DNA of 33,255 nt from Sphingomonadales bacterium (GTDB lineage Bacteria > Pseudomonadota > Alphaproteobacteria > Sphingomonadales > Sphingomonadaceae): assembly GCA_013791705.1 (NCBI GenBank), contig VMTF01000199.1:1-33255 (forward strand), given 5' to 3'. Below, piece after piece: positions 7,476-32,146 of the stretch. The translations under genes were made by a program, and so were the position numbers. Within the stretch, counting starts at the first letter, position 1; every line of letters starts with the position of its first letter. The notes below the pieces were generated by a model that was not told where the DNA came from, did not search any database, and saw only the letters and a list, made by a program, of their open reading frames with translations.

Positions 7476-7605
7476 CTGTGCCGGTAACATTCTGCCATAG
7501 GCATGGCCAATGCACCGCAGCACGACACGGGGCTACCTTGGCGGCGGCGCAAGTCGTAGCGCCGGACAGGTTGATTTGGCCAAGACGCGAAAGAGGTCTG
7601 AACTC

Positions 7606-8538: not shown

Positions 8539-9419
8539 CAAGCGACTACGAGCATCGCAGCATCTGGGGCCATCTGATGAAGCTGGCGTTCTGCCAGGGC
8601 TATGTCGACGCCGGCGGGATCCGCACGCGCTATGTCGAGGCCGGCCCCAAGGACGCGCCGCCGCTGATCATGATTCACGGCACCGGCAGCAGTTGGGAAT
8701 GCTTCTGCGCGACGCTGGAGAGCCATTCGCAGCATTTCCGCTGCTTCGCGATCGACATGGCCGGCAGCGGGTTCAGCGCGCGGCCGGACGAGCCTTATGA
8801 AATCGGCTTCTACGTGAAGCACGTGCTGGGGTTCATGGACGCCATGGGCCTGGCCAAGGCTTCGTTTATCGGGGTTTCGCTGGGGGCATGGGTGACGAGC
8901 CGGCTGGTGGTGGACCATCCCGAGCGGGTCGAGAAGCTCACCTTGCTCGCCGCTTCCGGCCTGATCGTCAACACGGCCACGCTTTCGCGCACCAAGACCG
9001 TGCGCAACGCGGCGGTCGACGATCCGAGCTGGGAGAACATCAAGCCGGTGTTCAATTCGATCCTCTACAAGGAAGAGGATCGCCTCCCCGATCTGATCCA
9101 GGTGCGGCAGACGATCTATCGCGAACCGGACATGAAGCAGGCGATGAACAACATTCTCGTCCTGCAGAACGAGGACGTGCGGCGCCGCAACCTTGTGACG
9201 GAGGAGGAGTGGAAGACGGTGAGGGTGCCGATTTTCATCATCCTCGCGCCCGACGACAACCCCGATTACACCACGACCGGCAAGCGCATTGCCGAGCTGG
9301 CATCGGATGTGCGCACGATGACTATCGACCATGTCAAACACTGGGCGCACTTCGAGGCGCCCGAACAGTTCAACCCGGCGAACCTTGCATTCCTGCTTGG
9401 GCAGCCGATGCCCGCCTGA
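8535..9419 (+). CDS. Alpha/beta hydrolase, probable meta-cleavage product C-C hydrolase (MhpC-like)
   Basis: IMIHGTGSSWECF, GVSLGAWVTSRLVVDHPERVEKLTLLAASGL, late His (DHVKHWAHFEAPEQFN); ATGA overlap with the extradiol dioxygenase. Confidence 0.88.
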   Translation: MTSDYEHRSIWGHLMKLAFCQGYVDAGGIRTRYVEAGPKDAPPLIMIHGTGSSWECFCATLESHSQHFRCFAIDMAGSGFSARPDEPYEIGFYVKHVLGFMDAMGLAKASFIGVSLGAWVTSRLVVDHPERVEKLTLLAASGLIVNTATLSRTKTVRNAAVDDPSWENIKPVFNSILYKEEDRLPDLIQVRQTIYREPDMKQAMNNILVLQNEDVRRRNLVTEEEWKTVRVPIFIILAPDDNPDYTTTGKRIAELASDVRTMTIDHVKHWAHFEAPEQFNPANLAFLLGQPMPA

Positions 9420-9502: not shown

Positions 9503-10966
9503 ATGGCGACCACCACCGCGAGCGGCTTCATCCACGGCGCATTCATCGGCAACCGGATGGTCACCGCCGCGAGCGGCGATACCGTGCCGGTGATCGATCC
9601 CGCCAATGGCGAGGTCTTCACGCACATCACCGAATGCGGCGCGGCCGAAGTCGACGCTGCTGTCGCCGCCGGGCGGGCCGCGCTCGACGAGGGCGAATGG
9701 GGGCGGATGCCCGCGTTTGAGCGCGGCCGCTTGCTGGCGCGGCTGTCGCAGGCGATCACCGCCAATGCGGTGGAACTGGCCGCGCTGGAATCGCGCGATA
9801 CGGGCAAGCCCGCCCGCCAGGCCAGCGCCGACATTACGGCTGCCGCGCGGTACTTCGAGTTTTATGCCGGGGCCGCCGACAAGATGCATGGGGAAACGAT
9901 CCCCTACCTGAACGGGTTCTTCGTTGCGACCGAGCGCGAGCCGCATGGGGTCGTCGCTCACGTCATCCCGTGGAACTATCCGGCGCAGATGTTCGGCCGC
10001 AATGTCGCGCCTTCGCTGGCGGTCGGCAACGCGGTGGTGGTGAAGCCGGCGGAAGATGCCTGTCTGTCCGTGCTGCGGATGGCCGGGCTTGCGGCCGAAG
10101 TGGGCTTTCCCGCCGGCGCACTGGCGGTCTTGCCCGGACGCGGGGCGGTGACCGGCGCGCTGCTTAGCGGGCATCACGACATCGACTATATCGCCTTCAC
10201 CGGCAGCCCGGCGGTCGGCGAAATGATCCAGGTTGCCGCTGCCCGGCGCGCGATCGGCTGCACGCTCGAACTGGGCGGCAAATCGCCGCACATCCTGTTC
10301 GGCGATGCCGACCTGTCGCTGGCCGTCCCCGCGATCGTCAACGGGATCGTCAATAACGCCGGCCAGACCTGCTCGGCGGGATCGCGCGTGCTGGTGGAGC
10401 GGGCGCACTTCGATCGCCTGGTGGGCGCGATTGCCGAGGCGTTCGGCAGGCTGCGGGCGGGGACGCCGGAGATGGACCTTGATCTGGGGCCGGTGATCAA
10501 TCCCGGCCAGCGCCAGCGGGTCGAGCGCTTTTGCGATCAGGCGGAGCGCGACGGGATTGCCTTGCTGGCGCAAGGCTCGATTGCAGGGAACGTGCCGGAC
10601 GGCGGCCTGTTCGTCGCGCCCCGGCTCTATGGGCCGGTCGACCCGGCTAACGTGCTGGCGCGTGATGAAGTGTTTGGCCCGGTGCTCTGCGTGATCCCGT
10701 TCGAGGACGAGGCCGAGGCGCTGCATCTGGCGAACGACAGCGAATTCGGGCTGCTGGCCGGAGTCTGGACCAACGACGGCGGCCGCGCGTTGCGGCTGGC
10801 CCGGCGGATCAAGGCGGGCCAGATCTACATCAACGGCTTCGCGGCCGGGGGCGGGATCGAACTGCCGTTCGGCGGGGTGAAGCGTTCAGGCCACGGCCGC
10901 GAGAAGGGTCTCGCCGCGATGCACGAACTCTCGACGATCAAGACGATCATCCAGCGCCACGGCTAG
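9503..10966 (+). CDS. NAD(P)-dependent aldehyde dehydrogenase
   Basis: HVIPWNYPAQMFGRNVAPSLAVGNAVVVKPAE, FTGSPAVGEMIQ, LELGGKSPHI, NNAGQTCSAGSRVLVE, DEVFGPVLCVIPFEDEAEAL. Confidence 0.95.
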   Translation: MATTTASGFIHGAFIGNRMVTAASGDTVPVIDPANGEVFTHITECGAAEVDAAVAAGRAALDEGEWGRMPAFERGRLLARLSQAITANAVELAALESRDTGKPARQASADITAAARYFEFYAGAADKMHGETIPYLNGFFVATEREPHGVVAHVIPWNYPAQMFGRNVAPSLAVGNAVVVKPAEDACLSVLRMAGLAAEVGFPAGALAVLPGRGAVTGALLSGHHDIDYIAFTGSPAVGEMIQVAAARRAIGCTLELGGKSPHILFGDADLSLAVPAIVNGIVNNAGQTCSAGSRVLVERAHFDRLVGAIAEAFGRLRAGTPEMDLDLGPVINPGQRQRVERFCDQAERDGIALLAQGSIAGNVPDGGLFVAPRLYGPVDPANVLARDEVFGPVLCVIPFEDEAEALHLANDSEFGLLAGVWTNDGGRALRLARRIKAGQIYINGFAAGGGIELPFGGVKRSGHGREKGLAAMHELSTIKTIIQRHG

Positions 10967-11960: not shown

Positions 11961-13493
11961 GTGACCACATTCGCTGACCCGAGCCCGTTGCTGGGCGACG
12001 AATACGAGACCCTTGGCGCACTGCTGCAGGCGGCGGCGCGCGAATTTCCCGATCAGGAAGCCCTTGTTCTCGGGGACCGGCGGCTGACGTATCGCGGGTG
12101 GCATGAGGCGGCGATGCGGCTGGGCGCCGAGCTGGTCGCGCGTGGCTTCGAGCCGGGCCAGATTGGCCTGATCTATCTCGATTCCACGATCGAATACGCG
12201 ATTGCCTTCGCGGCGGTTCAGGCTGCGGGCGGGATTGCGACCGGGGTGAACCTGCGGCTCGCCAATCGCTATGTGGGCGCGATTGCCGAGCGGGCCAAGC
12301 CGGCGGTGGTTTTTGCGCATGTGGGCCACGAAGTCCCGTTCGACGAAGCGCTGGTCTTGCGCTGCGATCCCGGCTCCATGGCGGCCAAAGGCCCCGGCCT
12401 GCCCGCGCTGGTGGAGCGCCGGGCGGACGATATCGCGACGATCATCTGGACCAGCGGAACCACCGGGCTGCCGAAGGGCGCGGCGATGGACCACGCCAAT
12501 CTGAGGGCGGCAACGCGGACATCGGGGCCGTTGGCCGCGCCATTCGGCCGGAAGATCAATTCCACCCCGTTTGCCCATGCCGGATTTACCGGGAAGATCT
12601 GGGAACAGATCGCCTTCGGCATGACGCTCGTGATCAACACCCCACCCTGGACGGCGCATAAAATGCTGCAGTTGCTGGTCGATGAGCACATCACGATCGG
12701 CGCAGGTGTGCCCGCGCAATGGGCCAAGCTGGTCGAACTGCCCGAGCTGGCGAGCGCCGACCTGTCCGCCTTGCAGGTGGGAATTACCGCGACCGCGCCG
12801 GCGCCGCCCGAACTGGTCGAGCGCGTGACGACCGCGCTCGGCATTCCGCTGATCGTCCGCTATTCGATGACCGAATGTCCCTCGATGACCGGGACGCGCC
12901 CGGGTGACGATGCCGAAGTGCTGTTCAACACCGTCGGCAGGCCGCAACGCGGCGTGGAAATCGAACTGGTCGAGGAAGATCTGCGCCCTGTCGCGGCGGG
13001 CGAGATCGGGCGCATCCGGGTGCGCGCCGCACAAGTGATGCGCGGCTATTGGGACGATCCGGAGCAGACCGCGCTGGTGCTGAGCGAAGACGGGTGGTTG
13101 CTGACGTCAGACCTGGCCCGGCTGCGCCCCGATGGGAACCTGGTCATCGCCGGGCGGGTGAGCGACATGTATATTCGCGGGGGCTACAACGTTTATCCGA
13201 TCGAGGTGGAGCGGGTGCTGAGCGATCACCCGCAAGTCCGCACCGCGGCGGTGATCGGGCGGCCCGCGCCGGTGATCGGCGAGATCGGCGTGGCCTTCGT
13301 CGAGCCGGCCGATCCGGCCGATCCGCCCTCGCTGGCAGAACTGCGGGCCTGGGTGGCTTCGCAACTGGCGGACTACAAGGCGCCCGACGAACTGGTGATC
13401 GTCGATGCGCTGCCGCTCAACCTCGTGATGAAGGTCGACAAGCTCGCCTTGCGGGACATGCTGGCGACTGCCGAGGTGATCGCGTTTCGCTAA
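11961..13493 (+). CDS. Acyl-CoA ligase (ANL superfamily)
   Basis: IIWTSGTTGLPKGAAM, YSMTECPSMTGT, DGWLLTSDLARLRPDGNLVIAGRVSDMYIRGGYNVYPIEVE; GTG start. Confidence 0.93.
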   Translation: MTTFADPSPLLGDEYETLGALLQAAAREFPDQEALVLGDRRLTYRGWHEAAMRLGAELVARGFEPGQIGLIYLDSTIEYAIAFAAVQAAGGIATGVNLRLANRYVGAIAERAKPAVVFAHVGHEVPFDEALVLRCDPGSMAAKGPGLPALVERRADDIATIIWTSGTTGLPKGAAMDHANLRAATRTSGPLAAPFGRKINSTPFAHAGFTGKIWEQIAFGMTLVINTPPWTAHKMLQLLVDEHITIGAGVPAQWAKLVELPELASADLSALQVGITATAPAPPELVERVTTALGIPLIVRYSMTECPSMTGTRPGDDAEVLFNTVGRPQRGVEIELVEEDLRPVAAGEIGRIRVRAAQVMRGYWDDPEQTALVLSEDGWLLTSDLARLRPDGNLVIAGRVSDMYIRGGYNVYPIEVERVLSDHPQVRTAAVIGRPAPVIGEIGVAFVEPADPADPPSLAELRAWVASQLADYKAPDELVIVDALPLNLVMKVDKLALRDMLATAEVIAFR

Positions 13494-13605: not shown

Positions 13606-14766
13606 TCAGTCGGCGCCGAGGATCATCGTCCCGTTCGAGCAGAACCAGCCGCCGGTGCCGCTGACGCAGGCGAGCTTGGCGTCGGCCACCTGACGATCAC
13701 CGCAACCGCCGCGCAACTGGCGCGCCGCTTCGACCAGCAGGAACAACCCGCGCATCCCCGGGTGGCACGCGGAAAGACCGCCGCCATCGGTGTTGGTGGG
13801 AAGCGCGCCGCCAACCCGCAGCCGTCCGTCCGCCACGAATGGGCCGCCTTCACCCTTCCGGCAGAAGCCGAGGTCTTCCATCGTGATCAGCAACATGTAG
13901 GTGAAAGCATCATAGACTTGCGCGACGTCGATCTCGTCCGGGCGGATTCCGGCGCGCTGGAAAGCGAGGGGGCCGGATACCGCCGCGGGCGAGGTCGTGA
14001 AATCGTCCCACTGGCTCATCGAGACATGCGACATGGATTCGGCGCTGCCCAGCACCCAGACCGGCTTGACGCCAAGATCCTTGACCCGGTCTTCCGCGAC
14101 CATGATCACCGCCGCGCCGCCATCGGACCGGATGCAGCATTGCAGCTTGGTAAAGGGGTCGGCGATCATCGGGCCATCGAGCACGTCGGCGATCTCGATC
14201 GGCGTGCGATAGGACGCGAACGGCGTGAGCCCGGCGTTGAAGCGGGCCGAGACGGCGATTTCCGCCATCTGTTCCAGCGTGGTGCCGAATTCGTACATGT
14301 GGCGCCGGGCGGCCATCGCGTATTTCGAAATCAGGGTGTGGCCGAACGGCGCTTCGAACTGGCTTGGCCCGCGCGTGCCCCAGGCGAGGCTGGCGGTGCG
14401 CAGCTTGCGCTTGAGATCGGTCCGCGCGGTCGAGCCGTAGGCAAGCAGCACGACATCGGCGCGGCCTTGCGCGATCGCATCGGCGGCATGGGCGGCCATG
14501 ACTTCCCAGGTGGCGCCGCCGACGCCGGTCGAATCGGTCCAGCGGGGCTTGAGGCCCATGTATTCGGCCACTTCGATCGGCTGGAGCGCGCCGAGGCCCG
14601 CCGAGGCGAAGCCATCGATGTCGGACGGTTTCAGGCCCGATTCCATCAGCGCGGCCCGCGCGGCCTGCGCGTGCAGTGCAAACGGGGTCGCATCAGGGGA
14701 GCCCGGCAGACCCGACAGACCAACACCGGCAATCGCTACGCGCCGAACCATAATTACGCCTCTCAA
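13606..14766 (-). CDS. Thiolase-fold protein, SCPx/lipid-transfer (Ltp2-like) type
   Basis: MVRRVAIAGVGLSGLPG...SGLKPSDIDGFASAGLG...VAQVYDAFTYMLLITMEDLGFCRKGEGG...LPTNTDGGGLSACHPGMRGLFLLVEAARQLRG. Confidence 0.88.
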   Translation of the reverse strand: MRGVIMVRRVAIAGVGLSGLPGSPDATPFALHAQAARAALMESGLKPSDIDGFASAGLGALQPIEVAEYMGLKPRWTDSTGVGGATWEVMAAHAADAIAQGRADVVLLAYGSTARTDLKRKLRTASLAWGTRGPSQFEAPFGHTLISKYAMAARRHMYEFGTTLEQMAEIAVSARFNAGLTPFASYRTPIEIADVLDGPMIADPFTKLQCCIRSDGGAAVIMVAEDRVKDLGVKPVWVLGSAESMSHVSMSQWDDFTTSPAAVSGPLAFQRAGIRPDEIDVAQVYDAFTYMLLITMEDLGFCRKGEGGPFVADGRLRVGGALPTNTDGGGLSACHPGMRGLFLLVEAARQLRGGCGDRQVADAKLACVSGTGGWFCSNGTMILGAD

Positions 14767-14904
14767 TTACACCTGACGGTCGCTGATAGGCCAGTGGAGC
14801 GAAAGGTGCTGTCACCGTGACGGGGACTCTTCGTGACACCCGCCGGCAACTAGAGGTTGGCTGGAATGCGGCCGCGATGCTGGCCGCCTTGTCAGGAGGT
14901 TCAT

Positions 14905-15711
14905 TTGAGCGATTCAGCCGTCGATACGGTGTTGTGCGATGTCACGGACGGCGTCATGCGGATCACGCTCAACCGCCCCGACAAGGCCAATGCGATCGCG
15001 CCCGAGGCGCGCAACCGCCTGATCGAGCTGTTGGGCGAGGCCGATGGCGATGTCGAGGTGCGGGCGGTCGCGATCCATTCCACCGGCAAATTCTTCTGCA
15101 CGGGCGCCGATGTCAGCCGGATGTCGGGCTCGATGGCCACGCCGCGCCCGACCGGCACGACCATGCGCACCATGCTCGGCGGCGCGCAGCGCCTGATCGC
15201 GGCGGTGCTCGATTGCGGCAAGCCGGTCGTGGCGGTGGTGCAGGGGCCGGCGGCGGGGATGGGCGCGCACCTGGCCTTTGCCAGCGACTTCATCGTGGCC
15301 TCCGAGGATGCCTGGTTTTCGCTGCCGTTCGTGCAGCGCGGGCTCGCGCTCGATGCGGCCGGGGCCTACTTGCTGCCGCGCCGGATGGGGCTGCAGAAAG
15401 CCAAGGAGCTCGCGTTTCTGGGCGACCGCCTGACCGCTGCCGAGGGGCAGGCGCTGGGCGTGGTCAACCGCGTTTGCGCGGCCGATCAGCTTGAAGCGAC
15501 CGCCGCCGAACTGGTCGGCCGGCTCGCCGCTGCCGCGACAACCGCGATCGGCCTGTCGAAAAAGCTGCTGAATGCATCGCTTGACGCCGACCGCAACAGC
15601 GCGTTCCTCGCCGAGGCAATGTCGCAGGAAATCGTCGGACGCACGGACGACATCAAAGAGGGCGTCGCGGCTTTCATGGACAAGCGGCCCGTGAACTTCA
15701 GGGGGTATTGA
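14905..15711 (+). CDS. Enoyl-CoA hydratase/isomerase
   Basis: MRITLNRPDKANAIAPEARNRL, GKFFCTGADVSRM, VVQGPAAGMGAHLAFASDFIVASEDAWFSLPFVQRGLALD. Likely TTG start at 14905 with aggagg at 14894-14899; the ATG-opened ORF begins at 14857. Confidence 0.92.
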   Translation: MSDSAVDTVLCDVTDGVMRITLNRPDKANAIAPEARNRLIELLGEADGDVEVRAVAIHSTGKFFCTGADVSRMSGSMATPRPTGTTMRTMLGGAQRLIAAVLDCGKPVVAVVQGPAAGMGAHLAFASDFIVASEDAWFSLPFVQRGLALDAAGAYLLPRRMGLQKAKELAFLGDRLTAAEGQALGVVNRVCAADQLEATAAELVGRLAAAATTAIGLSKKLLNASLDADRNSAFLAEAMSQEIVGRTDDIKEGVAAFMDKRPVNFRGY

Positions 15712-16130
15712 TGGCCAGCGCCGCACCGCGTTTCGACCTTCCGACGATCGAGCCGGAAACACAGCCGTTCTGGGACGCGCTGAAAGAAGGCAAGCTGTTG
15801 CTCGGCAAGTGCAACGGCTGCGGCAGGGTGCATTATTACCCGCGCCCGATGTGCCCGCACTGCTGGAGCGAGGATGTCACCCTGGTGGCCGCCGCCGGGC
15901 GCGGCACGCTCTACACCTGGTCGACCGTTTTCGTGAACGACCTTCCGCCGTTCAATGCCAAGCTGCCCTATATCGCGGCGCAGGTCGATCTTGAGGAGGG
16001 CGTGCGCATCACGACCATCATCGTCGACGTCCCGCCCGAGAAGCTCAGCATCGGCATGGCGGTGGACATCGGGTTCGAGCCCATTTCAGATGACGTAACG
16101 ATACCGGTGTTCCGGCCGGCAGGGAGTTGA
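15708..16130 (+). CDS. DUF35 zinc-ribbon/OB-fold protein (thiolase partner type)
   Basis: Rubredoxin-like zinc ribbon CNGCGRVHYYPRPMCPHC followed by the OB segment GRGTLYTWSTVFVNDLPPFNAKLPYIAAQVDLEEGVRI. Confidence 0.92.
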   Translation: MMASAAPRFDLPTIEPETQPFWDALKEGKLLLGKCNGCGRVHYYPRPMCPHCWSEDVTLVAAAGRGTLYTWSTVFVNDLPPFNAKLPYIAAQVDLEEGVRITTIIVDVPPEKLSIGMAVDIGFEPISDDVTIPVFRPAGS

Positions 16131-16136
16131 ACAGAC

Positions 16137-17057
16137 ATGGCAGGTATTCTTGAGGGCAAAGTTGCCCTGGTGACCGGCGCGGGCCACGGCAGCGGCCGGG
16201 GCCACGCTCTCGAACTGGCGAAGCAGGGCGCCAAGGTGATCATCAATGATCTTGGCGGGTCGGTAAATGGCGAGGGCCAGGGCCGCGACGCGGACGTGGT
16301 GGTCGACATCATCAAGGCACGCGGCGGCGAGGCCGTGGCTGATTACGGTGATGTCAGCGACGAGGCTGCCGCAAACGCGATGGTCAAGCGCGGGCTTGAG
16401 GAATGGGGCCAGATCGACATTGTCGTCAACAACGCCGGGATCGTGCGCGACAAGGCGATCTGGAACATGAGCGCCAGCGATTTCGACATGGTGATGAATG
16501 TTCACGTGCGCGGAACGTGGCTGACCTGCCGCGCCGCAGCGCAGATCTGGCGGGCTGCAGCCAAGGCGGGCAATGGCCGCTATCCGGGCCGGATCATCAA
16601 CACCACGTCCGGCGCCGGCTTGCTCGGCCACTTCGGGCAGACCAACTATGCGACCGCCAAGGCCGCGGTGGCGGGCCTGACGCTGACCCTGTCGCTCGAA
16701 CTGGCCTCGATCGGGGCGACCGCCAACATCATTTCGCCGGGCGGCCTGACCCGGATTTCGTCGACCATCGGCATGGGCACGCCCAAGGAGCCGGACGATT
16801 TCGATCAGGACGAATTCGATCCGTTCGATCCTTCGCTCGGTTCGCCCGTTGTTGCCTGGCTCGCCAGCGACGAAGCGCAACTGGTCACGGGCCAGTGCTT
16901 CCGCAGCGTGCGGGACCAGCTTTCCGTGCTCAAGCCGTGGTCCGAGTTCAAGGGTCTGACCAGCGGCGGCAAGCGCTGGAAGGCCGAGGAACTGGGCAAG
17001 ATCGTTGCGACCGACATCTTCGGCACCCGTGCGCCGGGTCTGCGGCTGGGGAGCTGA
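16137..17057 (+). CDS. Short-chain dehydrogenase (3-hydroxyacyl-CoA dehydrogenase-like SDR)
   Basis: VALVTGAGHGSGRGHALELAKQGAKVIINDLGGS, NNAGIVRDK, NYATAKAAVAGL. Confidence 0.93.
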   Translation: MAGILEGKVALVTGAGHGSGRGHALELAKQGAKVIINDLGGSVNGEGQGRDADVVVDIIKARGGEAVADYGDVSDEAAANAMVKRGLEEWGQIDIVVNNAGIVRDKAIWNMSASDFDMVMNVHVRGTWLTCRAAAQIWRAAAKAGNGRYPGRIINTTSGAGLLGHFGQTNYATAKAAVAGLTLTLSLELASIGATANIISPGGLTRISSTIGMGTPKEPDDFDQDEFDPFDPSLGSPVVAWLASDEAQLVTGQCFRSVRDQLSVLKPWSEFKGLTSGGKRWKAEELGKIVATDIFGTRAPGLRLGS

Positions 17058-17062
17058 ACGCC

Positions 17063-17515
17063 ATGACCGTATTGCTGAGCAGGGAAAGCCTTCCCGGCCT
17101 CGTCGGCACCGTGATCGGCCCGGGCGAATGGGTCGAGGTGACGCAGGAACGCGTGAACGAGTTCGCCAATGCGAGCGGGGATCACCAGTGGATCCATGTC
17201 GATGTCGAGCGGGCCAAGGCCGGGCCGTTCGGGACGACGATCGCGCACGGGCTGCTGACGCTGTCGATGATCGCGGCGCTGGCGCAAGGCCTGACGAAGT
17301 TCGACGGGTTCAAGATGGGCGTGAACTATGGCTACGAGAAGATCCGGTTTCCGACGCCGGTTCCGGTCGGCTCGCGCCTCAGGGTTTCGTCCAAGATCGT
17401 GAGCTTCGAGCCGGTCGGCGCGATGTTCCAGACGATCGTGGAATACACGGTCGAACGCGAAGGCGCGGACAAGCCGGCCTGCGTGGCGCAGATGATCTTT
17501 CGCCATAGTGTCTGA
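17063..17515 (+). CDS. MaoC-family dehydratase ((R)-specific enoyl-CoA hydratase-like)
   Basis: FANASGDHQWIHVDVERAKAGPFGTTIAHGLLTLSMI is the hydratase-2 signature. Confidence 0.93.
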   Translation: MTVLLSRESLPGLVGTVIGPGEWVEVTQERVNEFANASGDHQWIHVDVERAKAGPFGTTIAHGLLTLSMIAALAQGLTKFDGFKMGVNYGYEKIRFPTPVPVGSRLRVSSKIVSFEPVGAMFQTIVEYTVEREGADKPACVAQMIFRHSV

Positions 17516-17744: not shown

Positions 17745-18533
17745 TTAATACGGACTTCCGCCGCTCTCGACCGCGCTTCCGCGCCGGGTGAAGCGGCTGG
17801 CCAGCGCCTCGGTCGCCCGCGCCAGCAGGCTCATGTCGGTGCCGACGGCGACGAACGTGCAGCCCAGCTCGATATAGCGATCGGCCAGTGCCGGGTCCGC
17901 GCTCAGGATGCCGGGGGCCTTGCCGGCCGCGCGGATGCTGGCGATGGCGGCTTCGATCGCGGCGACGACTTCGGGGTGTCCGGGCCGGCCGAGGTGGCCG
18001 AGCGAGGCGGCCAAGTCGGCCGGGCCGATGAACACGCCGTCGACGCCTTCGGTGCGGCAGATTTCATCCAGATTGGCGAGGGCTTCGCGGGTTTCGATCT
18101 GGACCAGCAGGCAGACTTCGCGGTTGGCCTCAGCAACGTAGTTCGCGTCGCGGCCCCAGCGCGAGGCGCGGCTCATGCCGACGCCGCGGATGCCTTCCGG
18201 CGGATAGCGGCACGCGCGCACCAACTGCGCGGCCTGCTCGGCCGAGTTCACCATCGGGATCAGCAGCGTCTCGAAGCCGAGATCGAGATATTGCTTGATC
18301 AGCCGCGCCTCGCCGAACGGCGGGCGGGCGACCGCATGGGCGGGGGTGCCGGTGACGGCCTGCAATTGCGCGAGCAGGCCCGGAATGTCGGTCGGGCTGT
18401 GCTCACCATCGAACAACAGCCAGTCAAACCCCGCGCCCGCGCAGATTTCCGCACAATAGGGGGACGCGAGGCCTTGCCACAGGCCGATCTGGAGCTGGCC
18501 GGCGGCGAGCGCCTGTTTGAACGCATTTTTCAT
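17745..18533 (-). CDS. HpcH/HpaI aldolase (4-hydroxy-2-oxoheptanedioate aldolase-like)
   Basis: [50 protein letters not shown]...[38 protein letters not shown] matches HpaI nearly motif for motif. Confidence 0.94.
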
Positions 18534-18720
18534 AGGTCGCATCACTCGCTGCTTCGCGCTGCCCAGGCTATAACGCATTGCCGAAAGTCCCGGCTGCTTC
18601 AAGTACTGCGGCCGGCCATTGGAAAATACTATGGCCAGCAAAGTGTCTGGTGGCTAGCCCTGCGCTCGCGGCGGCCATAGTGCGGTATGGCCACCAGTTC
18701 TTGCGACGCAGAGTCGCGAG

Positions 18721-18765: not shown

Positions 18766-20334
18766 ATGTTCCTTCGCGATTTCGTCCGGCGCTGCGCCGA
18801 AAAATTTGCACCCGACACTGCCTATATCGATGCCGACCGGCGGAGCACCTGGGCGGAAATGCATCGCCGCTCCAGCCGGCTGACGCGGGCCATGCAGGAT
18901 TTCGGCGTCGGCAAGGGGGTGCGCACCGCGATCCTTTCGCACAACCGGATCGAGGTGGCGGAACACTGGTTCGCCTGCCTGAAGGGCGGCGCGGTCCGCG
19001 CGGGGCTCAACTGGCGCTATTCGACGCGCGAAATGCTGCACGTCATCCGCGATTGCGATGCCCGCGCGATCTTCATCGAAGCGCAGTGCGCGGCGAGCCT
19101 GGCCGATCATTTCGAGGAACTCGCGGCCGAGGGGCGCATCCTGATCGGGTTCGGCGGTCCGCACGACCTGCCGATCGACTACGAGAAGCTGATCGCCGGC
19201 ACCGAGGCCGCGCCCGACCTGCCCGAGCTGGACGAGGACGGACTTGGTGCGATCGGCTATACTTCGGGCACCACCGGCAACCCCAAGGGCGTGCTGCTGA
19301 GCCACCGCAACCTGATCACCTCGCTGGTCTTCAACAACATGGTCAACGGCTATACCAAGCAGGATGTCCGTATCTATGTGACCAACCCGGCCGGCATCAA
19401 CATCAACACGATGTGCATGAACATGATCACCGGCATGACCACCGTGCTGGAGAACTTCAACGCCGAGCGGTTCCTCGACAAGATCGAGGAGCACCGGGTG
19501 ACGACTGTTACCGTGGTGCCGACCATGCTGCGCCGCATCGTGGACGACGTGAAGGCCGGAAACTGGGATATCTCGTCATTGCGGCAGGTCTGCTACGGGA
19601 CGATGCCGGCGACCCCGGCGCTGATCCGCGATGCCTATGACACGCTGGGCTGCGAGTTCCTCAATCGCTATGGCGTGTCGGAATCGACCGGCGCGATCGC
19701 GCTGCTCGACGATGTCGGCCACCAGCAGGCGCTGGCCGGCGAGCCCGATCTCCTGCGCTCGGTCGGCCGGACGATGCCCCACGCCGATCTCCAGATCCGC
19801 GATGAAGACGGCAACGAGCTGCCGCGCGGCGAACTCGGGCTGGTGTGGATCGGCGGGGACACCGTGATGCAGGGCTATCTGAACCTGCCGGAACTCAACG
19901 CGGGCACGGTGTTCGGCAAGTGGCTCAAGACCGGCGATTTCGGCCGGATGGACGAGCGCGGGTATGTTTTCCTTGGTGATCGCCAGCACAACATGATCGT
20001 GACCGGCGGCTTCAACGTCTATCCCAACGCGGTCGAGAACGCGATTGCGGAATACCGGGGCGTGGCCGAAGTGGCGGTGTTCGGCATGCCGCACGAACAG
20101 TGGGGCGAGGCCGTCGTGGCGGCGGTTACGGTGGCGGCCGGTGCGGACGTAACGATCGAGGCGCTCCAGCAGCATTGCCGCGCTGCAGTGTCCAAGTTCG
20201 AAGTGCCCAAGCATATTGCAATCATTCCCGCGCTTCCGCGCGGGAATACCGACAAGGTCGACAAGCGGGCGATTCAGACAATGTTCGCACAGCCCGGCAT
20301 GTTGCCCTGGTCGATCGAGAAGGAGACTACGTGA
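18766..20334 (+). CDS. Acyl/aryl-CoA ligase (ANL superfamily), IpfF-like by context
   Basis: IGYTSGTTGNPKGVLLSHRN, NRYGVSESTGAIALLDD, GKWLKTGDFGRMDERGYVFLGDRQHNMIVTGGFNVYPNAVE, PRGNTDKVDKR. Confidence 0.93.
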   Translation: MFLRDFVRRCAEKFAPDTAYIDADRRSTWAEMHRRSSRLTRAMQDFGVGKGVRTAILSHNRIEVAEHWFACLKGGAVRAGLNWRYSTREMLHVIRDCDARAIFIEAQCAASLADHFEELAAEGRILIGFGGPHDLPIDYEKLIAGTEAAPDLPELDEDGLGAIGYTSGTTGNPKGVLLSHRNLITSLVFNNMVNGYTKQDVRIYVTNPAGININTMCMNMITGMTTVLENFNAERFLDKIEEHRVTTVTVVPTMLRRIVDDVKAGNWDISSLRQVCYGTMPATPALIRDAYDTLGCEFLNRYGVSESTGAIALLDDVGHQQALAGEPDLLRSVGRTMPHADLQIRDEDGNELPRGELGLVWIGGDTVMQGYLNLPELNAGTVFGKWLKTGDFGRMDERGYVFLGDRQHNMIVTGGFNVYPNAVENAIAEYRGVAEVAVFGMPHEQWGEAVVAAVTVAAGADVTIEALQQHCRAAVSKFEVPKHIAIIPALPRGNTDKVDKRAIQTMFAQPGMLPWSIEKETT

Positions 20335-21641
20335 TGGCAACTGCAGCAACTCTGCCGCCGGCGATAGATTATCGCCATCTCGTTCAGGACGGGCGTCTGC
20401 ACGGATCGCTCTATACCGATCCCGAAATCTTCGCGCAGGAGATGGAAGCCATCTTCCATCGCGGCTGGAGCTTCGTCGCACACGATAGCGAAGTGCCCAA
20501 CAACGGCGATTTCGTCGTCCGCAAGGTGGGCACCCAGTCGCTCATCGTGGTGCGTGACAGCAAGGGTGAAATCCGCATTCACTACAACCGCTGCTCGCAT
20601 CGCGGCGCCGTGCTTTGCCAGACCAGTTCCGGGCACCGTTCGCGCCTGACCTGCCCCTATCACGCCTGGACCTTCGCGCTGGACGGCCGCCTGATCGGCG
20701 TGCCGGACGAAGAGGCCTATCCCGCCGGGTTCAGCAAGGCGGACGCGGGGCTGGCGCCGGTGGCCCGGGTCGACAGTTATGGCGGCTTCATTTTCGTCAA
20801 TCTGGTGCCGAACGGATATTCTTTGCGCGACCATCTGGGCAAGGCGACCGATCTGATCGACGGGTTGCTGGGGCTTTCGCCGGTCGGCAGAATTCAGCTC
20901 AATGCCGGGTGGATGAAGCACAAGATGCGGTCCAACTGGAAGATCATCGTCGAGAACCAGGTCGATGGCTATCATGCCCAGATGGTGCATGGCTCTCTGC
21001 TCAAGGCGAACCAGACTTTCGCCACCGTTCGCGACCGCAAACCGACTTCGCCGACCCGCGTGCAGGACTTCGGCATGGGGCACACCGATATCGATCACAC
21101 CAGCGATTATCTCAAGGCCAACGACCGGTTGTTCCGCTGGACCGGCGGGATCGATCCGGCCCGCCTGCCGAATTATGTGAAGGCGATGCAGGACGCCTAT
21201 GGCGAGGAAGATGCGCGCCGCCGGCTGATCGGCGGGCCGCCGCACTCGATGCTGTTCCCCAACCTTTCGCTCGCCGAGATGAACATCATGGTGATCGAGC
21301 CGGTCAGCCCGACCGCATCGATCCAGTATACCTGCCCGGTGTTCCTGGAAGGCGCGGACGAGCTGAACGCGCGCACCTTGCGGCGCTGTGAAGGCGCGCT
21401 CGGGCCGGCCGGCTTCCTGATCGCCGACGATGCCGAGATCGGCGAACTGACGCAGATGGGCGTTGCCAACCTCGAGCCGGAATGGATCAACCTGTCGCGC
21501 GGGATGGACACCGAGGAAGTCCTTCCCAACGGCGTGAAGCGGGCCGGTCTGATGGACGAAACCAGCCAGCGCGGGTTCTGGCGGCATTACCGCGAGGTGA
21601 TGTCGGCCAGCGATCACGCCATGGGCCGGGAGAACGGATGA
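20334..21641 (+). CDS. Rieske non-heme iron aromatic ring-hydroxylating dioxygenase, alpha subunit (IpfA-like by context)
   Basis: Rieske ligands NRCSHRGAVLCQ...CPYHAWTF; mononuclear iron region NWKIIVENQVDGYHAQMVHGS; TGATG coupling with the ligase. Confidence 0.95.
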   Translation: MATAATLPPAIDYRHLVQDGRLHGSLYTDPEIFAQEMEAIFHRGWSFVAHDSEVPNNGDFVVRKVGTQSLIVVRDSKGEIRIHYNRCSHRGAVLCQTSSGHRSRLTCPYHAWTFALDGRLIGVPDEEAYPAGFSKADAGLAPVARVDSYGGFIFVNLVPNGYSLRDHLGKATDLIDGLLGLSPVGRIQLNAGWMKHKMRSNWKIIVENQVDGYHAQMVHGSLLKANQTFATVRDRKPTSPTRVQDFGMGHTDIDHTSDYLKANDRLFRWTGGIDPARLPNYVKAMQDAYGEEDARRRLIGGPPHSMLFPNLSLAEMNIMVIEPVSPTASIQYTCPVFLEGADELNARTLRRCEGALGPAGFLIADDAEIGELTQMGVANLEPEWINLSRGMDTEEVLPNGVKRAGLMDETSQRGFWRHYREVMSASDHAMGRENG

Positions 21642-22135
21642 TGATGCAGGCAACTCTGGAAAAACCGGCGCTGGCCGAACGGGTCGCGCAGTTCCTCTAT
21701 CGCGAGGCCGTGCTCGCTGACGAGCACCGCTACAACGAGTGGGAGGCGCTGTGGGCGCAGGATGATGTGCTCTACTGGGTGCCGATGCGGCCTGACGCCG
21801 ATCCCACCAGGGAAGTGTCATATATCTATGACAACCGCGCCCGCCTGGCGAGCCGCATCCGCCAGCTCAACACCGGTATGCGCCACGCGCAGGCCCCGCA
21901 ATCGGGCCTGCGCCGGATAATCTCGAACATCGAGATCGAGCCCGGCGAGGGGGATGAGGTGGTTACGCGTTCCAACTTCATCCTGATGGAATCGCGCCGC
22001 GGGGTTCAGTTCCTGTGGGCGGGCCGGACCACGCATGTGCTGGCGCCGGAGGGTGACAGCTTCCGGATCCGGCGCAAGACGATCAATCTGGTCGAAGCCA
22101 ACGAGCCGATCGGCACGCTTGCGTTCCTGATCTGA
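21638..22135 (+). CDS. Aromatic ring-hydroxylating dioxygenase beta subunit
   Basis: NTF2-like small subunit: VAQFLYREAVLADEHRYNEWEALWAQDDVLYWVPMRPD...RVRQ-like SRIRQLNTGMRHAQAPQSGLRRIISNIEIE; overlaps the alpha stop. Confidence 0.92.
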   Translation: MMMQATLEKPALAERVAQFLYREAVLADEHRYNEWEALWAQDDVLYWVPMRPDADPTREVSYIYDNRARLASRIRQLNTGMRHAQAPQSGLRRIISNIEIEPGEGDEVVTRSNFILMESRRGVQFLWAGRTTHVLAPEGDSFRIRRKTINLVEANEPIGTLAFLI

Positions 22136-22136
22136 C

Positions 22137-23303
22137 ATGAAGGCTGCAATTGCCGGACTTGGCACTGCCGGTCTGACCCGTGATGCGACCCCGCCGGCGG
22201 CGGAGCTGGCCCGGCAGGCGGTCTCGGCTGCAGCGGGCGATGCCGGGCTCCCGGTGTCCGCGATCGACGGGCTGGTGGTGTGCCGGACAAGCGCGGCGGG
22301 GGATTCCGTGCTGGGGCTCGATCTCCAGCGTGCGCTGGGTCTGCGCGATCTGACGCTTAACCGGATTGCGCTGTGCGAGGGGGCCAGCGCGCTGGCGGCG
22401 ATCCAGCTTGCGGCGCTCGCCGTGTCGGGCTGTTCCGCGCGGGCGGTCGTTTGCGTGTTCGCCGATACGCCGGTTATTCCCGGCAAGCGCATGAGTGCTT
22501 CGTTCGGGCGGCTGAAGACCGGCACCGGCCTTGAAGGGCTGCGCTATAGCGCGGGCCTGTTCGGCGGCGCGGCGATGTATGCGCTGAGCGCGATGCGCTA
22601 TCTGGCGGTGCATGGACTGGGCGAGGAGGTGCTGGCCGACGTGGCGATCACGACCCGGCAGTGGGCAGCGCTCAACCCGGCTGCTTCCTATCGCAAGCCG
22701 CTGACGCGCGAGGACTATTTCGCCGCACGCTATATCGCCGAGCCGTTGCGCCTGTTCGATTGCGCGGCGCCGGTAAACGGCGCGATCGCGGTGCTGGTGA
22801 CAACGCCTGAGCTGGCGGCGGATTGCGCGCAACCGCCGGTGCATATCCTCGCCTGCGCCGAAGGCCATCCCGGCACGCCGGATCGTAGCGGGTTCGACCG
22901 GCAATTGAACCACGGCGGGGCGATCGCGGCCAAGGCGCTGTTCGGAGCGACCGGACTGGGGCCGGCCGAGATCGACTTGTGCGAATTCTATGATGCCTTC
23001 AGCATTTCGCCGCTGCTGGCGCTTGAAGCCTATGGCTTCCATCCGCCCGGTGAGGCGCGTCAGGCCTATGCGGGCGGGAATGCGGCGCCCGGCGGAACGA
23101 TGCCGATCAATACCGGCGGCGGGCACTTGTCGGGCTTTTACCTGCAGGGGATGACGCCGTTGGCCGAAGCGATCGTGCAATTGCGCGGCGCGGCGGGCGA
23201 GCGACAGGTGGCGCGTGCCCGCACCGCGCTCGTGACCAACGACGGGGGGCGGTTCGATTACCACCTCGGCATGATCCTCGGCGCAGCGGAGCACCGGCCA
23301 TGA
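22137..23303 (+). CDS. SCPx-type thiolase / acetyl-CoA acetyltransferase-like (IpfD-like by context)
   Basis: MKAAIAGLGTAGLTRDATPPAAELARQAV...LNRIALCEGASALAAIQLAALAV...EFYDAFSISPLLALEAYGF...MPINTGGGHLSGFYLQGM. Confidence 0.88.
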   Translation: MKAAIAGLGTAGLTRDATPPAAELARQAVSAAAGDAGLPVSAIDGLVVCRTSAAGDSVLGLDLQRALGLRDLTLNRIALCEGASALAAIQLAALAVSGCSARAVVCVFADTPVIPGKRMSASFGRLKTGTGLEGLRYSAGLFGGAAMYALSAMRYLAVHGLGEEVLADVAITTRQWAALNPAASYRKPLTREDYFAARYIAEPLRLFDCAAPVNGAIAVLVTTPELAADCAQPPVHILACAEGHPGTPDRSGFDRQLNHGGAIAAKALFGATGLGPAEIDLCEFYDAFSISPLLALEAYGFHPPGEARQAYAGGNAAPGGTMPINTGGGHLSGFYLQGMTPLAEAIVQLRGAAGERQVARARTALVTNDGGRFDYHLGMILGAAEHRP

Positions 23304-23695
23304 CCTTTCCGCCGATTCCGGAACCGGACGCCGCGTCTGCCCGGTTCTTTGCCGCGCTCGACGCCGGCCGCATCGAATTGCTGCGGTGTGCGGACTGCGG
23401 CTCGATGCACCTGGCCGCGCTGATCTGCGATGCTTGCGGCGGAACGCAGTTCGCCACTGTGCCCGCAAGCGGGGCAGGGATCGTCCACAGCTTTACCCGG
23501 CTGCACATGGCGCACCATCCGGCCTTTGCCGAACAATTGCCGCTTACGGCCGGGGTGGTCGAGCTGGCCGAAGGTCCGCGCCTGTTCGCGCAACTTGTGG
23601 GCGAGGGCACGCTTGCGATCGGCGCGCCGGTGTCGGCCGAGATCCGCGACTGCGACGGGCGCGGGGTGGCGGTGTTCCGGCTTGTTGCGGGCTAG
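23300..23695 (+). CDS. DUF35 zinc-ribbon/OB-fold protein (IpfE-like by context)
   Basis: CADCGSMHLAALICDACG zinc ribbon plus OB segment; ATGA overlap with the thiolase. Confidence 0.9.
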   Translation: MTFPPIPEPDAASARFFAALDAGRIELLRCADCGSMHLAALICDACGGTQFATVPASGAGIVHSFTRLHMAHHPAFAEQLPLTAGVVELAEGPRLFAQLVGEGTLAIGAPVSAEIRDCDGRGVAVFRLVAG

Positions 23696-26579: not shown

Positions 26580-28763
26580 TCAGGCCCTCGTTCTGGGCAG
26601 GCCAAGGCCCGCCTCGGCAATGATGCTTCTCTGAACTTCGCTCGTTCCGGCATAAACCGTGCTCGGGACCGAGCGGCGGAACGCGCGTTCGATCCGGCCG
26701 AGCGGGGTAAAGCCCCGGAACACGGATTCGGGTGCCGCCAGGGCAACCAGGTCGGAACTGCACGAAACCCAGGCTTCGCTGGCGAACAGCTTCGTGCTCG
26801 GGCCATAGTGCTTGCGGGGACGGCCGTTGGCGAAGGCCTCGGCAGTGCGGCGGTTGAGGGCATCCGCGACTTCCAGCCGCACGGCGACCGAAGCCAGAAC
26901 CATCTGTGCCGCAGTCGTGTCAATCGGCGCGGCCCCGTCGGCGGCAGGTGTTCTGGCCCATTCCAGTGCACATTCCAGCATCCCCCGGATTGCGCCATAG
27001 AAGTGATCGCCCGCGCCCTGTTCGAGCGCCAGCAGGGTCGCGAGCACCTTGGCGCCGGCGTTGACTTCGCCGAGGCGATAATCGTCATGCAGACGGACGC
27101 CGTCGTAGAAGGTAGTGTTGGTCCGTTCGCCGCCCACGGTCTTGATTTCGTGGCAACGATAGCCCGGCACGGTGGTCGGCATCGCGAACAGGGTGATGCC
27201 GCCGTGCTTGCTCTCGCCGGTGCGCGTAAGCAGGATCACGTAGTCGGCGAAATGGCCTTGCGACGTGAACATCTTCTGGCCGTCGATCACCCATTCGTCA
27301 CCGTCGCGAACCGCGCGCGTCTTGACCGCGAAAATGTCGGACCCGCACGATGGTTCGGAGTAGCCGAGCGCCGCGTAAGCTTGCCCTGCGGCCAGTTTCG
27401 GGAGGATCTCCGCCTTGGCCCGATCCGAGCCATAGCGCATCAGCATCTTGCCGAGCATGTCGCCGATCCCGACGATCACATAGTCCCAGTCATACTCGGT
27501 GAAGGTGTCGCGGATGGCGCTGACCGCGAAGGCATCATAGCCGCTGCCGCCCAGTTCGACCGGCCAATCCGGATAGAGCAGGTTGCGGCTTGCCAGCTTC
27601 TGGAACAACTCCTTGTCGAAGAAGTCATCAGATTCGAATTGCCATTTGCTGCGCGTTTCCGTGACGTGTTCGGCCAGCACCTCGCGAACCCGGTTGCCGG
27701 CTTCCCGCGCGCCGGCGGGATATTCGAACGTGATGGCAACCGGGCCGGCGTCCGGAAGGTCCGCCGGCTCGTTCTTCCACAGGCGCCGGGCCGCCACGGC
27801 CAGTTCCGCGTCGGGATTGCCGGCCGCAAGCGCCCAGGCGTTGACGCGCCGGAAATACATTTGCGCATCGTATTCGAGCGTCATGCCGTAGCCGCCAAAC
27901 ACCCGCATCGCGCGAATGGTGGCCTGGCGGCAGGCTTTCGCGGCCCACCAGAACGACATCGGGACCATCGCCGCCGCCATCGGGTGCCCCGATGCAATCC
28001 GCTCGACCGCGCGCCAGACCAGCAGTCCGGCGCCATCGACTTCGGCGCTGGCTTCGGCGAGCGGATGGGCGAGGCCCTGATAGCTGCCGATCGGCTGGCC
28101 GAACGCTTCGCGCTCCTTGGCATAGTCCGCCGCGAGATCGATCGCCTTGCGGGCGGCGGCGGCGACTGAGGCCGCGGTGAGCAGTTTCCACTCGTCGATC
28201 GCGGCGCGGAATGCGGCGATCGCCGCAGACCCGCTGGCAACCGCTTCGCCGACTTCCGGCCCGAGCAGCACGTCGCAGGTGGCGATGGAGCCGGTGTTCG
28301 GCTTGTTCGCGCCGAACGGTCCCCGGACCACCCGCACCTGATCGCCGCAGCGGAACAGGATGCGCTGCGCCACGGGCGCGGCGACAACCGGACGGGGCGC
28401 CGGATGGGCCGCGTCGGCGAGTGCGAACGTGACGATTTCGCCTGCGGCGACGGATGAAACGTCGCCGGTCAGCGCGGCGAGCAGGCGCGCCGCGACGATC
28501 GCCTCGGTCGCGGGGATGAGCGGAAGAAAGGTGCCAATCGTTTCGGCGACGATGACCGCGTCCATCAGGCTGCCGCCCGCGCCGCCGCTGTCTTCAGGAA
28601 CGCGCAGGAGGGGCAGGCCCATCTCGGCGAATGCCTGCCAGGTCTCGGCATCGTGGCCGATCGCCTCGCTCTCGCGGATGCGGGCCGGCGTCGATGTTCT
28701 GGCCAGAGCGCGCGTCAACATGTCGCGCAGCATTCGCTGATCGTCGGTCAGTTCAAGAATCAT
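26580..28763 (-). CDS. Two-domain fused acyl-CoA dehydrogenase (FadE34-type architecture)
   Basis: N-half MILELTDDQRMLRDMLTRAL...REAFGQPIGSYQGLAHPLAE...RVFGGYGMTLEYDAQMYFRRV; C-half restarts the ACAD fold: LYPDWPVELGGSGYDAF...YSEPSCGSDIFAVKTRAVRDGDEWVIDGQKMFTSQGHFADYVIL...STVYAGTSEVQRSIIAEAGLGL. Start chosen at 28763. Confidence 0.92.
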   Translation of the reverse strand: MILELTDDQRMLRDMLTRALARTSTPARIRESEAIGHDAETWQAFAEMGLPLLRVPEDSGGAGGSLMDAVIVAETIGTFLPLIPATEAIVAARLLAALTGDVSSVAAGEIVTFALADAAHPAPRPVVAAPVAQRILFRCGDQVRVVRGPFGANKPNTGSIATCDVLLGPEVGEAVASGSAAIAAFRAAIDEWKLLTAASVAAAARKAIDLAADYAKEREAFGQPIGSYQGLAHPLAEASAEVDGAGLLVWRAVERIASGHPMAAAMVPMSFWWAAKACRQATIRAMRVFGGYGMTLEYDAQMYFRRVNAWALAAGNPDAELAVAARRLWKNEPADLPDAGPVAITFEYPAGAREAGNRVREVLAEHVTETRSKWQFESDDFFDKELFQKLASRNLLYPDWPVELGGSGYDAFAVSAIRDTFTEYDWDYVIVGIGDMLGKMLMRYGSDRAKAEILPKLAAGQAYAALGYSEPSCGSDIFAVKTRAVRDGDEWVIDGQKMFTSQGHFADYVILLTRTGESKHGGITLFAMPTTVPGYRCHEIKTVGGERTNTTFYDGVRLHDDYRLGEVNAGAKVLATLLALEQGAGDHFYGAIRGMLECALEWARTPAADGAAPIDTTAAQMVLASVAVRLEVADALNRRTAEAFANGRPRKHYGPSTKLFASEAWVSCSSDLVALAAPESVFRGFTPLGRIERAFRRSVPSTVYAGTSEVQRSIIAEAGLGLPRTRA

Positions 28764-28890
28764 GCGGTCTGCCTTCTGTTTCCGTTCGTTCACGCAGTTG
28801 TTCGCGCAGCCTGGCCTTCAGGATCTTGCCGGCCGGGGCGCGGGGGTAGTCATCGACAATCGCCTGGCGCTCGGGCGTCTTCCGGCGGGC
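28753..28890 (-). pseudogene. Truncated C-terminal remnant of an acyl-CoA ligase
   Basis: ORF 28753-28968 (-) ends KTPERQAIVDDYPRAPAGKILKARLREQLRERTETEGRPHDS, the ANL C-terminal PRxxxGKIxKxxLRE motif, with no adenylation core upstream. The 5' boundary is approximate. Confidence 0.7.
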
Positions 28891-30238: not shown

Positions 30239-31859
30239 TCAGGCGACGAGACGGACGAGTTCGTCAGCGGTCGCATCGAGTGCCTGCTCGGTGCAGATGG
30301 CGGCGACGTAGCGATCCGGGCGCAGCAGGATGCACTGGGCATCGGGGAGGCGCAGCGACCAATCGCGGAACGCACCGGCCACATCGTCGAGCACAATGGT
30401 GCCCTCCTGCACCTGCTTCGCGTCGGGATGCGCGCGCGAGCGGTTGATCCGCACGAAGACCCCGCCCATCGCCAGCCACCGATCCCGCACCGCCGGCGAA
30501 AGCGCCGCCTGCGGATCACGATTGACGCCAATGATCGCAAACCAGTTGCCGATTGCATCGTCCAGACGAACCCTGCGCCCTTCGGCCGTCTCCACGAACG
30601 GCTGGGGCAGCATCCGGCCGACCGGGCCATCTTTTTCCATTCCGTCGCGCGGCACGACGATGCCTTCGGTATAACGCGGAAGCGGCTTGAACTTCATCTG
30701 CAGGATATAGTCCCGCACGGACGGCAAGCCCTGGATCAGCCGGAAGAATATGTCTCTGAGGGCTTCGGTGAGGCGTGACCTGGGCGAATAGAGAACGCCG
30801 AACATCTTGGCGACGTTGACCATGGTCAGCGCATGGTCGCGCCGTTCGACGTCGTAGCTGTCAAGCACCGCGGGCTTGAGCTGGCCCTTCACCACGCCGG
30901 CCAGCTTCCAGCCGAGGTTGGTGACATCGCGCAGACCCGAATTCATCCCCTGACCGAAAAACGGCGGCTGGAGATGCGCTGCATCGCCGGCGAGGAACAC
31001 CCGGCCAACCTTGAAGCGATCGGCCACCCGGGTGTGATGCAGATAGACCCGGCTGCGCAGCAGGGTCGGGCGCGGTGTCCCCTCGGGATAGAATTTGTCG
31101 AGCAGACGTTCGACATTCTCCGGCGACTGCATCTCCTCGTCGGTTTCGTCCGCCGCAAGCCGGAATTCGAACCGGCGATGGCCGTAGGGCAGGTCAATCG
31201 ACATCGAAGGGCGCTTCACGTCGCAATAGACCGCCGAATAGGGCGCATAGAGGCGATCGTCCTTGAGATCGACCACCAGCCAGCGATCGGCGTAAGTCTC
31301 GCCGCGCAATTCGACCCCGATAAGCTGGCGGATCGTGCTGCGTCCGCCATCCGCGCCGACCACGTAGTCGGCCTTGATCGTGGTTTCCTGTCCGGCCGCA
31401 TCGCGCACCGTGACGCTGACGCCCTCAGCCCCCTGTTCCAGATTTATCGCGTCAAGGCCCAGCATCATCCGCACGCAAGCATAGCGCTCCAGCCCCTTGC
31501 GCAGCGTTGTCTCGGTCAGCGGCTGGATAAACAGATTGCGGCGCGGCCAGCCGAAGGGCTGCGCCTGCGGCTGGACTTCCGCGAAAAGGCGGCCCACGCG
31601 ACGTGTGGTAGCGCGCCGCCGTATTCTGGATCATGTCCTTCAACAGAACATCGACCAGGCCAACCGTCTGGTAGCCGCGCAGCGCTTCATCGTCGATGCC
31701 GACCGCGCGGGGATAGGGAATGATATCGTCTTCCCGGTCCACGATGATGGTGTCGACGCCATACATGCCCAGATGATTGGCGATCGTGACGCCGCACGGA
31801 CCTGCCCCGACGATCAAGACTTTCGTGCTGATAACCTGCAAGGACACGGCCTCCCCCAA
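30239..31859 (-). pseudogene. MhpA-like 3-(3-hydroxyphenyl)propionate FAD monooxygenase, interrupted by an apparent +1 frameshift (or sequencing error)
   Basis: N-part (ORF 31452-31859) KVLIVGAGPCGVTIANHLGMYGVDTIIVDREDDIIPYPRAVGIDDEALRGYQTVGLVDVLLKDMIQNTAARYHTSRG; C-part (ORF 30239-31597) GRLFAEVQPQAQPFGWPRRNLFIQPLTE...GRVFLAGDAAHLQPPFFGQGMNSGLRDVTNLGWKLA. They join in MhpA order when one G of the GGG at 31593-31595 is removed. Confidence 0.85.
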
Positions 31860-32146
31860 TTTTGCTTTTGACGCCTATATAACCGTTATTCGAGAAGGCA
31901 ATCCCTTATTATGAGACTTGGCGGCGGTGCCAGACGGAAGGGAAGGCTTCAGTCGAGCACGGCGCCAGTGCGGATGTCGCACTTGCCGGACCCCGGTGGG
32001 AGTTTGATAGGCAAGGATCAAAACACTGGCTATTGAAGCAGGGAGGGCTCGCGGCCGCACACAACGTCGGAGCGGTTTCATGATTCTAAAGCGGCAGCCC
32101 GCGCTCGGGGTACTGGAATGGTCCCACCGGCAACCGCGCACGACCA

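Follow-up and report, generated by a model that had tools for sequence, protein, structure and literature searches.

The Five-Gene Module

The window analysed here is a stretch of 33,255 nucleotides, contig C208 (VMTF01000199.1) in the 3.09 Mb draft genome of a Sphingomonadales bacterium. Between positions 18766 and 23695, it contains five genes on the forward strand, encoding an IpfF-like CoA ligase (18766-20334; Pfam AMP-binding and AMP-binding_C), an IpfA-like Rieske oxygenase alpha subunit (20334-21641; Rieske and Ring_hydroxyl_A), an IpfB-like beta subunit (21638-22135; Ring_hydroxyl_B), a thiolase-fold putative retro-aldolase resembling IpfD and Ltp2 (22137-23303; Thiolase_C_1), and an IpfE-like DUF35/OB-fold partner with a Cys4 zinc ribbon (23300-23695; OB_ChsH2_C (DUF35)). 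Pfam assignments and open frames agree with the five functions and the common strand given in a preliminary description of this DNA, and its junction coordinates proved exact when the sequence was read directly: the ligase and alpha genes meet in TGATG at 20334, the alpha and beta genes in ATGA at 21638, a single base (22136) lies between the beta stop codon and the thiolase ATG, and the thiolase and DUF35 genes overlap in ATGA at 23300. The five functions are clustered on one strand, as in the Ipf system. The same set recurs at some 40 loci distributed over several phyla, and the closest relatives keep the same order.

The alpha subunit contains the Rieske residues C87/H89/C107/H110 and the iron ligands H214/H219/D366, which are invariant in 77 homologues and whose roles are assigned by analogy with known Rieske oxygenases. 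It does not reach the curated NCBIfam cut-offs for BenA, HcaE or anthranilate dioxygenases, scoring at best 191 bits where the cut-off is 781. The contig itself yielded no dedicated ferredoxin or reductase; contig C286 encodes a Rieske-type ferredoxin (109 aa), and further [2Fe-2S] proteins are encoded elsewhere in the genome. Likewise, ipfH and ipfI lie outside the ipfABDEF block on the ibuprofen plasmids (PMC9956071).

The Surrounding Catabolic Island

The module is preceded by a series of catabolic genes, many of which recur in a genome of the same genus. This relative keeps the module itself, with 56-81% identity per protein, and its island contains, within 56 kb of the module, a LysR regulator, P450, second thiolase, enoyl-CoA hydratase, second DUF35 protein, SDR, MaoC, second ligase, ADH, APH, acyl-CoA dehydrogenase, CoA-transferase and FAS1-type dehydratase. 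In the window, the forward strand encodes a cytochrome P450 (1846-3189; 66% identical in the same-genus island), an acyl-CoA dehydrogenase, a class III CoA-transferase and a FAS1-type dehydratase (4310-7475; 87, 77 and 51%), an aldehyde dehydrogenase (9503-10966) and a second CoA ligase (11961-13493; 54%). A second SCP-type thiolase of a different family (13606-14766, reverse strand; 87%) has a YDAF motif and a His at the position of Tyr344 of Ltp2. The enoyl-CoA hydratase, second DUF35 protein, SDR and MaoC genes that follow (14857-17515, forward strand) probably serve side-chain shortening. Judging by the content of the same-genus island, the module has its firmest partners in the putative shortening genes as a whole.

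Three further genes point to a lower pathway. A LigB-type extradiol dioxygenase (7510-8538, forward) is nearest to MhpB, a 3-carboxyethylcatechol 2,3-dioxygenase, and an alpha/beta hydrolase (8535-9419, forward) to the C-C-bond hydrolase HsaD, both below cut-off, while an HpaI-type pyruvate aldolase immediately upstream of the module (17745-18641, reverse) is above the cut-off of TIGR02311. Since MhpB-like, hydrolase and HpaI genes are absent within 56 kb in the same-genus island, linkage is less well supported for the lower pathway than for the module itself. A genome search for a dedicated hydratase (FAA_hydrolase family, HpaH/MhpD) returned one member only, on another contig and with no visible link to the pathway.

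Two reverse-strand genes downstream have unusual frames. An MhpA-like FAD hydroxylase (30239-31860), which scores above an NCBIfam cut-off, has about 85 N-terminal residues in another frame; the break is a frameshift, either an assembly error or real, and longer, unbroken homologues are present in loci L016, L022, L027 and L064. At 26580-28793, two acyl-CoA dehydrogenases form a tandem within a single frame of 737 aa. As the same fusion recurs in L019 and L020 (726 aa, 65% identity), it looks genuine and may represent a heteromeric dehydrogenase whose subunits have become joined.

With an E-value threshold of 1e-60, only three genomes among 401 from the order were found to contain the module, one of them that of the window, a rarity that fits horizontal acquisition. 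This patchy distribution, together with the density of catabolic genes on the contig and the frameshifted MhpA-like neighbour, could also be taken to mean that unrelated catabolic genes have come to lie side by side in a degradation island, or that an operon is decaying. The junctions of the five genes overlap, however, their frames and catalytic residues are intact, and the same module is present in many distant genomes, so that chance juxtaposition or decay is hardly credible.

Phylogeny and Relation to IpfABDEF

In Ipf-dependent ibuprofen degradation, CoA ligation is followed by formation of a dihydrodiol and its retro-aldol cleavage to propionyl-CoA and 4-isobutylcatechol (PMC9195938). All five proteins of the window are homologous to their Ipf counterparts, with pairwise BLAST E-values from 2e-11 (DUF35) to 3e-134 (ligase) and identities to the pIBU218 proteins of 42% (F, over 525 aligned columns), 39% (A), 48% (B), 47% (D) and 36% (E); the ligase is 81-88% identical to those of Sphingomonadales relatives. 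Among 72,556 plasmids, the two top-listed thiolase matches come from pRW412a and pIBU218, both of them ibuprofen plasmids. Their annotated order is alpha, beta, thiolase, OB-fold and AMP-binding, which confirms the earlier observation that ipf is arranged A-B-D-E-F and the window F-A-B-D-E. The window thus lacks the published Ipf order, but order is not mechanistically defining.

Related loci were collected from 85,462 genomes using the thiolase alone as query; the nearest matches to the window come from genomes of Sphingomonadales. In the thiolase tree, the Rieske-linked thiolases and IpfD form a clade of 43 rows (support 100), set apart from the window's second SCP-type thiolase and from a true thiolase. 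Although the query was the thiolase alone, members of this clade adjoin a Rieske alpha gene in every locus with a long enough contig; the two in which no alpha was detected are L021, with a contig that starts within the beta gene, and L067, a contig of 1.8 kb.

A first alpha tree was built from the loci chosen by thiolase and could hence have been biased. Further alphas were therefore drawn from 399 genomes of the phylum and 386 of the class, sampled on alpha similarity only. Among those with 40-46% identity, 12 of 13 have no Ipf-type thiolase nearby, which rules out alpha identity as a diagnostic for the system, though most belong to a separate sister group. In the rebuilt tree including this sample, the window's alpha falls into an IpfA-lineage clade of 45 rows (support 99/92), at a distance from HcaE, XylX (benzoate type), TphA2 and IacC-like enzymes. 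The 41 linked alphas of the initial set all remain in this clade, and only four of its rows are unlinked. Within the clade, the window belongs to clade I (17 rows, 98/91) and IpfA to clade II, a split with which the thiolase tree is compatible.

The alpha and thiolase thus lie in the IpfA and IpfD lineages, respectively. These trees make up the sequence half of the test put forward for the proposal of an ipf-like unit, which they leave standing; the placement needs refinement, as the window shares a clade with the Ipf lineage but lies in a subclade that is sister to true Ipf and not inside it. Clade I extends to Comamonadaceae, Caulobacteraceae, Frankia, Rhodococcus and Streptomyces, and the literature searched contained no characterised reaction for any of its members.

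Outside these clades, annotated members of the sister group of Rieske oxygenases (L098-L102, L195-L200, L204-L206) are located beside enoyl-CoA hydratases, SDRs and KAS/OB-fold proteins, in hosts that include Mycobacterium avium, Pseudonocardia, Rhodococcus opacus, Variovorax and plasmids of Sulfitobacter. One member, L200, adjoins a YDAF thiolase, and the group may represent another aryl-CoA dioxygenase system. The alphas of L201-L203, from three genomes of one family, are nearest to clade II, and the Ipf-type thiolase is absent from their fetched flanks.

Gene order and neighbours also follow the clades. Proteobacterial clade I loci showing all five genes are ordered F-A-B-D-E, with the exception of L026, in which E has moved; actinobacterial loci are ordered D-E-A-B-F, and clade II loci A-B-D-E-F or A-B-F-D-E. 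The latter is the annotated order of L008, where an apparent A-F-B results from an over-long frame. An HpaI-type aldolase is found nearby in 13 of 17 clade I loci but in none of 23 clade II loci (Fisher p ~2e-7, uncorrected for shared ancestry). The preliminary description had considered that the substrate might be a different arylalkanoate, a suggestion that gains support from these conserved clade I neighbours, the HpaI aldolase and the MhpB/MhpC-like genes.

The same data bear on whether the module is simply an ibuprofen operon in another order, with the substrate and product of IpfABDEF. Homology of all five proteins to Ipf would allow this, as would the breadth of IpfF, which accepts several arylacetates and 2-phenylpropionate (PMC9956071). 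Nevertheless, it is very unlikely: the window is in the sister subclade and not with IpfA and IpfD, true ipf sequences are nearly invariant among isolates (PMC11892951) as opposed to 36-48% identity here, and the HpaI and MhpB-like neighbours of the window are missing from clade II loci.

The Thiolase-Fold Protein as a Putative Retro-Aldolase

The catalytic residues of the steroid aldolase Ltp2 are Tyr294, the base within a YDHF motif, and Tyr344, the acid, whereas Sal requires the Cys of its YDC-type motif; both enzymes normally act after a hydratase (PMC12329534). In the alignment, Tyr285 (within YDAF) and Tyr335 of the window protein occupy the columns of Tyr294 and Tyr344, and a Gly occupies that of the nucleophilic Cys of thiolases. 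Tyr246 was also considered as an Ltp2 catalytic residue and was rejected, as the alignment has Ala at that column and the literature names Tyr294 and Tyr344 (PMC12329534).

Both tyrosines are present in 40 of 40 Rieske-linked homologues and the nucleophilic Cys in none, its column being filled by Gly (39/40) or Ala (1/40). The Rieske-linked homologues (n=40) carry the motif YD[A/P/S/N]F; of the 50 homologues for which no Rieske neighbour was detected, 48 carry YDC. Since Sal needs the Cys of the latter motif, the signature of the Rieske-linked group is distinct in being Cys-free. Many Rieske-less loci of Chloroflexota/Dehalococcoidia (L030, L032, L033, L036, L037 and others to L095) encode close relatives of the aldolase together with DUF35; these have a YDCY motif and both tyrosines.

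The AlphaFold2 model of the window protein has a mean pLDDT of 85, and its best Foldseek matches in the PDB are Sal-Shy(DUF35) (9myr) and Ltp2-ChsH2(DUF35) (6ok1), the two solved DUF35-bound steroid aldolases, ahead of true thiolases. The protein shares with Ltp2-type retro-aldolases the tyrosine pair without Cys, the fold and the DUF35 partner. Lacking the nucleophilic Cys, it is not a true thiolase, and of the SCPx-type thiolase originally assigned only the SCP2-type/thiolase fold holds, the active site being of the retro-aldolase type. His296 of YDHF and the ChsH1-ChsH2 hydratase partner are likewise absent, with YDAF and dioxygenase genes in place of the fused hydratase. Judged by its residues and modelled fold, the "thiolase" is better read as a putative retro-aldolase that would work like Ltp2, yet is not an Ltp2.

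The habit of Ltp2 and Sal of following a hydratase (PMC12329534) raises the alternative that the Rieske oxygenase and the aldolase/DUF35 pair act at different steps: the aryl-CoA would be hydroxylated elsewhere on the ring, and the pair would cleave a hydratase-made beta-hydroxyacyl-CoA, as Ltp2 does in steroid side-chain degradation. Enoyl-CoA hydratase, MaoC and acyl-CoA dehydrogenase genes are indeed present in the window, and Rieske-less relatives of the aldolase are common in Chloroflexota. Yet the Rieske-linked aldolases form one clade, always beside the Rieske pair where the contig allows, they differ in their Cys-free motif from the Rieske-less relatives, and a separate second thiolase/hydratase/DUF35 set in the window would serve beta-oxidation. 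Separate steps are therefore considered unlikely.

Proposed Pathway

An Ipf-like deacylating dioxygenation is the preferred reading, with a probability of about 0.8. It is built on gene content, homology, trees, active-site residues and conserved linkage, from which we infer the individual reactions, their sequence and the class of substrate. Probably, the P450, acyl-CoA dehydrogenases, hydratases and second ligase and thiolase first shorten a longer side chain. The ligase would then convert the arylalkanoate to an arylacetyl- or 2-arylpropionyl-type CoA thioester, and the Rieske alpha/beta pair, with a ferredoxin and reductase encoded elsewhere, would dioxygenate the ring carbon bearing the side chain and its neighbour. 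The predicted product of this ipso-dioxygenation is a cis-dihydrodiol in which a tertiary alcohol lies beta to the thioester. Its retro-aldol cleavage by the thiolase-fold/DUF35 pair, with Tyr285 as base and Tyr335 as acid by analogy with Ltp2, would release acetyl- or propionyl-CoA, while the ring re-aromatises to a catechol, which presumably helps the cleavage.

The MhpB-like dioxygenase, the hydrolase and the HpaI-type aldolase probably open the catechol and complete its degradation in an Mhp-like ring cleavage. Given what is known of the Mhp and Hpa pathways, the likeness of these genes to MhpB, HsaD and HpaI suggests that the catechol bears a carboxyalkyl group beside a hydroxyl, unlike 4-isobutylcatechol.

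The five-gene core is kept as a unit at about 40% identity across several phyla, including uncultivated marine and freshwater lineages. The system is thus more widespread than the ibuprofen literature suggests, and its conservation suggests that it has a role in nature and was only recruited from there for the degradation of drugs. A broader proposal, tentative and rated at slightly under even odds, is that the ibuprofen operon is a recent twig of an older, broad family that dioxygenates natural aromatic acids and then cleaves them by retro-aldol chemistry. Clade I would be a pathway of its own, acting on a natural arylalkanoate whose ring carries a second carboxyalkyl substituent, e.g., a ring-opened hydroaromatic or an aromatic terpenoid, and leading to a deacylated catechol for Mhp/HpaI-type cleavage, and the Cys-free YDAF/Tyr site would be a distinct retro-aldolase solution enabled by re-aromatisation. 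Clade I also offers a ready set of operons for finding new arylalkanoate-degrading enzymes.

Comparison with Known Systems

Relatives of the module are found in the Rhodococcus plasmid clusters of pDK3, pLP4 and pGD02.2.1 and in Streptomyces NBC_00564, for which no characterisation was found. They share with the window the clade I aldolase and Rieske pair and also contain a hydrolase, HpaH/HpaI, a second ligase, an aldehyde dehydrogenase and a second thiolase 69-73% identical to that of the window. They differ in gene order (D-E-A-B-F or D-E-A-B), in their divergent lower operon and in their actinobacterial hosts.

The steroid aldolases Ltp2-ChsH2(DUF35) and Sal-Shy(DUF35) resemble the window pair in thiolase fold, DUF35 partner, Tyr294/Tyr344 equivalents and absence of a Cys nucleophile. 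In the window, however, the beta-hydroxyacyl-CoA would come from a dioxygenase and not from a hydratase, DUF35 is a free protein, and Ala replaces the His or Cys of YDHF/YDCY.

The closest characterised counterpart is IpfABDEF of Sphingomonas Ibu-2, Rhizorhabdus wittichii MPO218 (pIBU218) and Sphingopyxis granuli RW412 (pRW412a), which has the five protein families in common with the window, tightly clustered on one strand and homologous in every pair, with matching active-site residues in IpfD. IpfE of the ibuprofen plasmid (L007, 13117-13515) has lost the Cys4 zinc-ribbon cysteines, which the window DUF35 protein retains. The lower pathways differ as well, Ipf being associated with ipfL/ipfM (catechol 2,3-dioxygenase/hydroxymuconic semialdehyde dehydrogenase) and the window with HpaI, MhpB-like and hydrolase genes. 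With its F-A-B-D-E order, its position in the sister subclade and its 36-48% identity, the module is, at the level of sequence, a variant of the Ipf system: homologous throughout and expected to perform the same chemistry, but belonging to a separate clade with a different gene order and different neighbours.
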